The notes beneath the pieces were generated by a model that ran no database searches, had not been told where the DNA came from, and worked only from the letters and a program-made list of their open reading frames with translations. Shown in pieces: positions 25,118 through 26,909 of a DNA stretch of 27,249 nt. The number at the start of each line of letters is the position of its first letter. The stretch's first letter is position 1. Source of the DNA: a virus; the IMG/VR virus record IMGVR_UViG_3300032288_000775, positions 1 through 27,249 of that record; one strand, given 5' to 3'. The position numbers were made by a program, and so were the translations under genes.

Positions 25118-25153
25118 AAAGAGAGGGGGACTTAATTGTCCCCCTCTTTTTTT
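25118..25153. terminator. Strong, probably bidirectional intrinsic terminator
   Basis: A stem of about 13-14 pairs (AAAGAGAGGGGGAC with GTCCCCCTCTTTTT) around a TTAATT loop sits 6 bases after the stop of the peptidoglycan-binding-like gene and is followed by seven or more T's on the + strand. On the - strand the complement also ends in a T-rich run. It therefore can end both the late + strand operon and the convergent methyltransferase gene, whose stop lies at its edge. Confidence 0.88.
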
Positions 25154-25727
25154 ATTGGATTTTTTTAAGCCAAACTTGAGGACCATCTTCAATTTTTTCA
25201 ACTCGACCAATTAATAAATGAATCAATGTGTCTATTGCATAACGTGGATCATAGAAATCTCCTTTGCCCATGCTCCACATATAATCATCAAATGCAATTA
25301 ATCCACCAACAACTGTTTGTTCATATGCATTCATTCCATCACGTAGTACGGCAAATGCAGTATGGTCACCATCAATATAGATAAAGTCATAGCCACCACC
25401 AGAGATAGAAAAGAATACGTCGCTACGTTTTTTACTTGGTATTATCTTTTTCTTTTCAATAGCTTCTTTATTTTTTTCATAGTATGTATTCCATACATCA
25501 TTCCAATCCATTTGTTTATGGACTGGCTCGTCAGATCCTTGCCAAGTATCTACATCTATTAAAATAGACGACTCATGCTGAAGGATATTGTCTGCCATCC
25601 ACTTAGAGGCATCTCCTGTATATGCACCTATTTGAACACAGCGCAAGGCTGTGTTCGCCAAAGGAAGTAAGTGACGTTCAAAGTTTGCCTTTGCGATAGT
25701 TTCTTCAAACCAATTTGGATATGTCAT
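25152..25727 (-). CDS. Class I SAM-dependent methyltransferase
   Basis: 191 residues, the only - strand gene. It has SAM-binding motif I VQIGAYTGDAS (31-41), an acidic post-I segment SILIDVDTWQG (D58, D60), YDFIYIDGDH (113-122) and GGLIAFDDY (141-149), the layout of the Methyltransf_24 group, which includes sugar O-methyltransferases. The DGDH and FDDY acidic residues could bind a metal. AGGAAA lies a few bases upstream of the - strand ATG. The gene is oriented against the flanking phage operons and has its own terminator, as expected of a moron (an extra gene expressed independently). Target could be a surface glycan, tail glycan or small metabolite; this cannot be told from sequence. Not a DNA methylase, since no DPPY or PC motif is present. 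Confidence 0.85.
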   Translation of the reverse strand: MTYPNWFEETIAKANFERHLLPLANTALRCVQIGAYTGDASKWMADNILQHESSILIDVDTWQGSDEPVHKQMDWNDVWNTYYEKNKEAIEKKKIIPSKKRSDVFFSISGGGYDFIYIDGDHTAFAVLRDGMNAYEQTVVGGLIAFDDYMWSMGKGDFYDPRYAIDTLIHLLIGRVEKIEDGPQVWLKKIQ

Positions 25728-25863: not shown

Positions 25864-26055
25864 ATGAACGAACTTCCTCCGCATAGATCTTATAGCCAGT
25901 TATCTACTTGGCAATCCTGCCCACAGAAATACTACCTAAGCAAAGTGGCTATGGTTCCAGAGAAACCTGCGGTATATCTTGCTGCTGGTTCTGCTGTCCA
26001 CTCCATGCTGGAGTGGCTCAACCATGAGCTTTACAAGAAGCAACTTGACAATTGA
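25864..26055 (+). CDS. Cas4/RecB-like exonuclease, N-terminal piece
   Basis: 63 residues starting MNELPPHRSYSQLSTWQSCP. It carries the first two elements of a PD-(D/E)XK exonuclease of the Cas4/RecB type: the S-x-S-Q-L-x-x-W-x-x-C-P segment, in which C19 is the first of four cysteines for an iron-sulfur cluster, and A-G-S-A-V-H-S-M-L-E, in which H46 is the conserved active-site His. It then ends at TGA in the helix LNHELYKKQLDN. The catalytic Asp/Lys and the other three cysteines are not in this frame; they are in the gene at 26238-26909. ATG 25864 is chosen because the family motif begins there; its ribosome site is poor. Its last 32 bases overlap the zinc-ribbon gene. It may be a real subunit or a broken end. 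Confidence 0.65.
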   Translation: MNELPPHRSYSQLSTWQSCPQKYYLSKVAMVPEKPAVYLAAGSAVHSMLEWLNHELYKKQLDN

Positions 26056-26251
26056 TCAACGTGGTATACCAAGTAATGAGTGTATCAATTGCGGATCAAA
26101 CATACAGGTTATCCGTGCCATCTTTGCTGACTATGAACTGGTCATGTGGTTCCTTGATTCTTTCTGTGCAGGATGTGGCTCACCAATGACAGCACCTACA
26201 CCTGTGGATAATCCTGACTATAAAGAAGAGGATGATGATGACCTCTATTGA
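26024..26251 (+). CDS. Zinc-ribbon protein between the exonuclease pieces (75 residues)
   Basis: Starts MSFTRSNLTIDQRGIPSNEC. Two CxxC knuckles, C20/C23 (CINC) and C48/C51 (CAGC), are separated by 24 residues, a typical zinc ribbon, with an aromatic/acidic middle (IFADYELVMWFLDSF) and an acidic tail (NPDYKEEDDDDLY). Standalone zinc-ribbon genes of this look (RGIP...C..CG, then C..CG..TAPTP) are common in actinobacterial phages in my memory. ATG 26024 has GGAG about 10 bases upstream and overlaps the N-terminal exonuclease piece by 32 bases; its end overlaps the C-terminal piece by 14-20 bases. It may bind DNA or bridge the two nuclease pieces. Upstream in-frame TTG at 25979 is less likely. 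Confidence 0.68.
   Translation: MSFTRSNLTIDQRGIPSNECINCGSNIQVIRAIFADYELVMWFLDSFCAGCGSPMTAPTPVDNPDYKEEDDDDLY
26225..26231 (+). promoter_or_regulatory. Ribosome binding site for the C-terminal exonuclease piece
   Basis: GAAGAGG lies 6 bases before ATG 26238, the third of three consecutive in-frame ATGs (26232, 26235, 26238). It lies inside the zinc-ribbon coding region and shows that the C-terminal piece can start translation by itself, rather than being only the remnant of a frameshifted gene. Confidence 0.6.
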
Positions 26252-26909
26252 TTTGACACAAAAGTGGCTTGAGGTATTTAATGATGCCGTCAAGGAGACC
26301 GAAGAGAAATCTGGTATTCCCTCGACAGAGTGGAAAACAGCAGGACGTAAGACCACCTTGCGTCCTGATGGGGAAGATCTATCGTTCTGGCAAAGCGATG
26401 GACTCAAGCAGGTAGAGGCGTACCAGAAATGGTATGAGTCTTCTGGTTGGAAAATTGCTACGATGCCCGATGGTCGTCCTGGAATTGAATGGGCTGCTGA
26501 TGTTCACTTCGGGGGAACACCAGTTCGCTTTATTGTTGATGCGATCTACCAAGTAGGGGAAGACTTGGTAATCGTTGATTACAAGACAGGTTCTAGGACA
26601 CCATTTGGCATGATACAAGCAGGCTTGTATGCATCTGGTATTGAGAAAGTAATGGGCGTCCGTCCTAAGTGGGGCGCATTCTTTATGACAAGACAAGGTA
26701 CGCTTGACGATCTTATAGATCTGTCGCACCTAACCATAGATTATTTTGAGTATGTATTTGGTGCAATGAACCATTCCGTATTGAACGGATGGTTCCCACC
26801 ATCCGTAGGTGATTCATGTCGGATGTGTTCATTCCAAGATAAATGCCCAGCAATGGGTACTATAGATTTCCCCTTGCAAATACCAACAACAAAGGGAAAG
26901 AAAGGATGA
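26238..26909 (+). CDS. Cas4/RecB-like exonuclease, catalytic C-terminal piece
   Basis: 223 residues starting MTSIDLTQKWLEVFNDAVKE. It carries the rest of a PD-(D/E)XK exonuclease: D101 in FIVDAIY, D114-Y-K116 in VIVDYKTG, Q127 and Y131 in IQAGLYASG, and the C-terminal cluster C194, C197 and C203 in DSCRMCSFQDKCPAMG. In Cas4-type enzymes these three cysteines pair with one N-terminal cysteine around a 4Fe-4S cluster; here that cysteine is on the separate protein at 25864-26055. Enzymes of this type resect DNA ends 5' to 3' or trim ends for recombination. The first start codon at 26232 is also possible. The stop lies 4 bases before the next gene start. The family is clear; activity without the N-terminal piece is doubtful. 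Confidence 0.85.
   Translation: MTSIDLTQKWLEVFNDAVKETEEKSGIPSTEWKTAGRKTTLRPDGEDLSFWQSDGLKQVEAYQKWYESSGWKIATMPDGRPGIEWAADVHFGGTPVRFIVDAIYQVGEDLVIVDYKTGSRTPFGMIQAGLYASGIEKVMGVRPKWGAFFMTRQGTLDDLIDLSHLTIDYFEYVFGAMNHSVLNGWFPPSVGDSCRMCSFQDKCPAMGTIDFPLQIPTTKGKKG

Follow-up and report, generated by a model that had tools for sequence, protein, structure and literature searches.

A Cas4/RecB-family actinophage exonuclease encoded by two genes, probably the product of an ancient gene fission

Enzymes encoded in pieces are known in phages, mostly as insertions in T4-like phages, and a homing endonuclease at the junction is common in such genes-in-pieces enzymes, though not required. The documented cases from T4-related phages include the NrdA of Aeh1, which is split by mobE, the gp43A/gp43B DNA polymerase of Aeromonas phage 25 and the gp39/gp60 topoisomerase of T4, and function was retained in the tested cases (PMC2988022, PMC3653736). 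Actinophages, for their part, encode single-chain exonucleases, such as D29 gp69, Fred313 gp69, SWU2 gp68, Pahexavirus gp36 and, in the Streptomyces phages Ponzi and Manuel, gp36 and gp35, respectively.

The window analysed here, i.e. the whole stretch of 27,249 nucleotides of IMG/VR virus record IMGVR_UViG_3300032288_000775, carries two genes, exoN and exoC, that compare with both sets of systems. The single-chain actinophage exonucleases are homologous to exoN and exoC over both pieces, display the same active-site residues and cysteines and are encoded at a similar place near DnaB-like helicase genes. However, each of them is one gene and one chain, and they are about 28–35% identical to exoC. 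Like the split enzymes of Aeh1, phage 25 and T4, exoN and exoC would provide one enzyme from two separate phage genes. Unlike them, they concern another enzyme and another phage group, no homing endonuclease is recognised at their junction, their split is fixed across two diverged phage groups and, if a metal cluster forms, its ligands would be distributed across the chains. A split Cas4-like phage exonuclease is not described in the titles and abstract openings of the literature searched, a body of work outside which most subscription journals lie.

Two genes for successive parts of one exonuclease

The features of the locus and of related loci are listed in Table 1. An earlier note, made from the letters alone, had given the positions and lengths of exoN and exoC and the residues named in them, all of which agree with the sequence. 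It had also credited exoC with a ribosome-binding site of its own, and a GAAGAGG does precede the ATG at 26238, at a distance of 6 nt. As the ATGs at 26232 and 26235 are in frame too, exoC may encode 225 aa. Among relatives, the exoC starts have a median pairing energy of -6.3 kcal/mol (background, -2.2), and exoN in the window has no strong ribosome site (-2.7 kcal/mol). The gap between the two genes is filled by a third gene, P2, that was absent from the earlier note; it shares 32 nt with exoN and 14 nt with exoC, and the GGAG preceding it has a pairing energy of -6.7 kcal/mol (background median, -2.2). Just 5' of exoN lies a methyltransferase gene of the Methyltransf_24 type.

Table 1. Coordinates of the features of the split exonuclease locus (positions in the window) and of features in related loci (locus or accession given)
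Feature	Position	Strand	Basis
Methyltransf_24-type methyltransferase gene	25152-25727	minus	
exoN (N-terminal piece, 63 aa, C19 and H46 in GSAVH)	25864..26055	+	PF12705/PHROG 69 matches
GGAG, possible ribosome-binding site of P2, within exoN	26010..26013	+	sequence
P2 (75 aa, CxxCGS...CxxCGS, zinc-ribbon-like)	26024..26251	+	separate conserved gene
GAAGAGG, ribosome-binding site of exoC, within P2	26225..26231	+	sequence
exoC (catalytic piece, 223 aa)	26238..26909	+	PF12705 and PHROG 1870 matches
Free-standing P2 homologue (CxCG...CxxCG...TAPTPxD)	OX376641.1 26775-26951 (L478 2276-2455); L479 572-751; L481 1465-1689		
Junction insert, F5-type phages	L348 2045-3017, L376 2682-3011, L382 2661-3005		
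Overlapping primase-like genes	L310 30102-30975; L478 4524-5388, minus strand		

The products of exoN and exoC cover successive, non-overlapping stretches of PF12705, PHROG 69 and PHROG 1870. PF12705 (PDDEXK_1, cut-off 22) is matched by exoN at positions 3–53 (E 1.7e-7, 31.9 bits) and by exoC at positions 87–247 (E 2e-7, 31.7 bits), and each gene exceeds this cut-off in all 14 records searched. PHROG 69 is matched by exoN at positions 86–141 (E 8.4e-12) and PHROG 1870 by exoC at positions 75–292 (E 2.6e-58). When aligned with single-chain relatives, exoN followed by exoC amounts to a complete exonuclease, as had been proposed from the letters, and the split point falls in the variable loop that follows the GxAxH helix. 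As in genes-in-pieces enzymes, two intact genes thus encode successive parts of an enzyme that is single-chain in relatives. Neither P2 nor the junction genes of relatives gave any significant match to a homing endonuclease or a remnant of one.

The residues of a nuclease active site, namely H46 of exoN and D101, D114 and K116 (D-x-K), Q127 and Y131 (Q-x3-Y) of exoC, are invariant in the aligned relatives. The same holds for C19 of exoN and C194, C197 and C203 of exoC, whose 1+3 pattern, as in the 4Fe-4S subset of the family, suggests the ligands of such a cluster. Furthermore, C19 and H46 are kept in 22 of 22 distinct exoN relatives. The profile of CRISPR Cas4 proper (TIGR00372, cut-off 65 bits) was matched below its cut-off by both exoC (26.1 bits) and exoN (16.5 bits); judged by its sequences, the pair is Cas4-like, not Cas4.

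Conservation and age of the split

Relatives were sought by IMG/VR scans using as queries exoC, P2 and exoN, plus the exoC of a cultivated relative and that of its kin, and the loci counted were those with distinct exoC DNA and both genes complete among the best 80 matches per scan. These amount to 184 loci, 92 of the type found in the window and 92 of the type found in the cultivated phage LanE43AprF5 (F5). Within these best 80 matches per scan, the split occurs at the same place in all 184 loci and none is fused; since the scans gave the best 80 matches each, relatives that are fused or more distant may have escaped them. A genome-contig scan with exoC as query gave no match.

The earlier note had listed findings that would speak against its reading, namely reads with indels that bring back one frame, decay of exoN in close relatives that retain the other piece, or a full second exonuclease. 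Among the 184 distinct loci there is no fused or frame-restoring variant. As regards decay, exoN is present wherever at least 250 upstream bases exist, the five loci without an exoN match having fewer than 250, and its dN/dS is about 0.02. Indeed, purifying selection is strongest on exoN: the median pairwise dN/dS is 0.018 in its core, compared with 0.047 in that of P2 and 0.097 in exoC, values that are approximate because dS is above 1. Lastly, a PF12705 search of the window record and 13 near-full-length relatives (39–42 kb) retrieved only exoN and exoC and no further nuclease of the family.

The F5-type loci include those of two cultivated phages of freshwater actinobacteria, LanE43AprF5 and LanE43AprE7, both of which carry the split pair and were isolated on 'Ca. 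Planktophila' (PMC10202952, in the main text of which the exonuclease is not mentioned). The terminase of F5 is 49% identical to that of the window, and this kinship with F5 and E7 suggests a Planktophila-like host for the window phage. Between the two types, exoC shows roughly one-third identity. A tree of 17 rows places the split forms together, without exception, across a branch (support 93/99) from seven single-chain actinophage exonucleases. This favours a single ancient fission, although the tree has long branches and its support falls short of being decisive.

A nuclease probably rebuilt from two chains

The two genes are intact, separate and co-conserved, with a common split point, invariant residues and independent starts. 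We regard as quite probable that an ancient gene fission gave rise to a two-subunit Cas4/RecB-family exonuclease, whose active site and probably Fe-S cluster would extend across the chains. In the ancestor of a wide group of actinophages, the gene of an ancestral single-chain phage exonuclease of this family would have broken within the variable loop that follows the first conserved helix. exoN and exoC would now share an operon, with a separate start for each, and their products would associate to reconstitute a single nuclease. H46 of exoN would come to lie beside D101, D114 and K116 of exoC in the rebuilt active site, while C19 together with C194, C197 and C203 would hold one 4Fe-4S cluster across the two chains. 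The junction itself would tolerate other genes, P2 in the case of the window's group. We infer from the sequences that the two products assemble physically, that they have the cluster in common and that they act as an exonuclease in replication or recombination. More tentatively, the 4Fe-4S cluster, with one cysteine from exoN and three from exoC, might act as a staple between the chains, in which case cluster supply or oxidation could control their assembly.

It is unlikely that exoC is instead a self-sufficient nuclease and that exoN plays another role, such as regulating exoC or binding DNA. The D, D-x-K and Q-x3-Y motifs are all on exoC, and the core of its model is fairly confident (mean pLDDT of the whole model, 70); however, exoN always accompanies exoC and keeps as invariants C19 and H46, both of which are needed by the single-chain enzyme. 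The structure nearest to the exoC model among those of the Cas4 family is ACE1 (9iab, Argonaute-associated; E 2.2e-6), the matches with MGME1, RecE, AddAB and Cas4 being weaker. Unlike exoC, the Cas4-family structures are single-chain, and TM-scores are only about 0.4, for a model made without exoN and with its tail unresolved. This tail, which carries the cysteines (184–223), has the appearance expected if a partner chain is missing and so gives partial support to the two-subunit enzyme, although the alignment may simply have been too shallow.

Genes at the junction and persistence of the split

P2 is an independent gene. A P2 profile detects it as a single copy, at the junction, in 9 of 9 window-type records, its four cysteines are kept in all 33 distinct sequences and nearly every locus has ATG or GTG as the P2 start codon. 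Two similar loci, L027 and L031, have ACG at the conserved start position; with the ATG replaced, P2 in these loci must be initiated at another site or be made inefficiently. The Lar-type restriction alleviation zinc ribbon (TIGR03655, cut-off 39.6) was matched by P2 at 16.1 bits (E 0.01), a weak likeness in sequence that is a resemblance only, and the structure model of P2 is poor (mean pLDDT 53).

In the F5 record and in three of five other F5-type records, the same profile detects a homologue (about 59 aa; BLASTP E 5e-9 with P2) that is free-standing. This homologue lies far from the exonuclease genes and, in F5, is near a WhiB-like gene. Its existence in F5-type genomes indicates that P2 most likely either entered the junction or left it, and need not be the cause of the split. 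Could P2 nevertheless serve window-type phages as a third subunit, keeping exoN and exoC in contact? It is conserved and lies between both genes, overlapping both, in all 92 window-type loci, but the split is the same in F5-type phages, where P2 is either free-standing elsewhere or undetected, and we consider this role as improbable as the self-sufficiency of exoC.

Across relatives, the gap between exoN and exoC ranges from -17 to +955 nt, and the junction shows direct overlap, P2, an unrelated 107–115-aa gene, or two genes (955 nt). Three distinct F5-type loci carry one extra gene of about 109–115 aa, and L348 (on the same contig as L405) carries a related 107-aa gene together with a 218-aa gene. 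The 107–115-aa gene takes, in a few F5-type phages, the same site as P2 in the window-type ones. These extra genes gave no significant family match, save one with DUF7574 just below the cut-off, and one member of the 107–115-aa gene, used as a scan query, retrieved its own contig only. L348, whose junction insert is the largest, also has a 149-aa ORF (1161–1610) that is HNH endonuclease-like by eye (LDHLCRNKWCVNPYHL); it lies upstream of exoN, at a distance of about 250 nt.

This variation bears on the production of a single chain by programmed +1 frameshifting, which would join exoN to exoC in F5-like loci and exoN to P2 and exoC in window-like ones. Each next frame is +1 in the overlapping loci, and +1 read-through yields an open chain. 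However, the stop codons and flanking bases vary freely, exoC retains its own start codon and ribosome site, and whole genes or 296–955 nt lie between the pieces in four distinct loci. As junction gap and gene content vary, frameshifting is excluded as a general route to one chain, and we hold it to be very improbable. That the gene is simply broken, by a sequencing slip or as a pseudogene, has a negligible probability. Nothing but an initial impression that the reading frame is interrupted speaks for it, whereas the same split is found in every relative examined, including many independent assemblies and two cultivated phages, with both pieces under strong purifying selection. The earlier note had likewise argued against a simple slip, on the ground of the exoC ribosome-binding site.

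The fission of a Cas4/RecB-family gene into two subunit genes thus remains the preferred reading and, because two cultivated phages carry the pair, the assembly of exoN with exoC is directly testable. Related phages possibly harbour another split enzyme: Manuel carries two overlapping genes, gp41 and gp42, both annotated as DNA primase, and F5 two overlapping primase-like ORFs. Methods of gene finding and family searching that presuppose a single chain will easily miss or misname the 63-residue exoN product. The age and spread of the split lay outside what could be known from the letters of one stretch of DNA: the split of a Cas4-like exonuclease persists across two diverged groups of actinophages, and its active site, and probably its Fe-S cluster, would be distributed over two chains.
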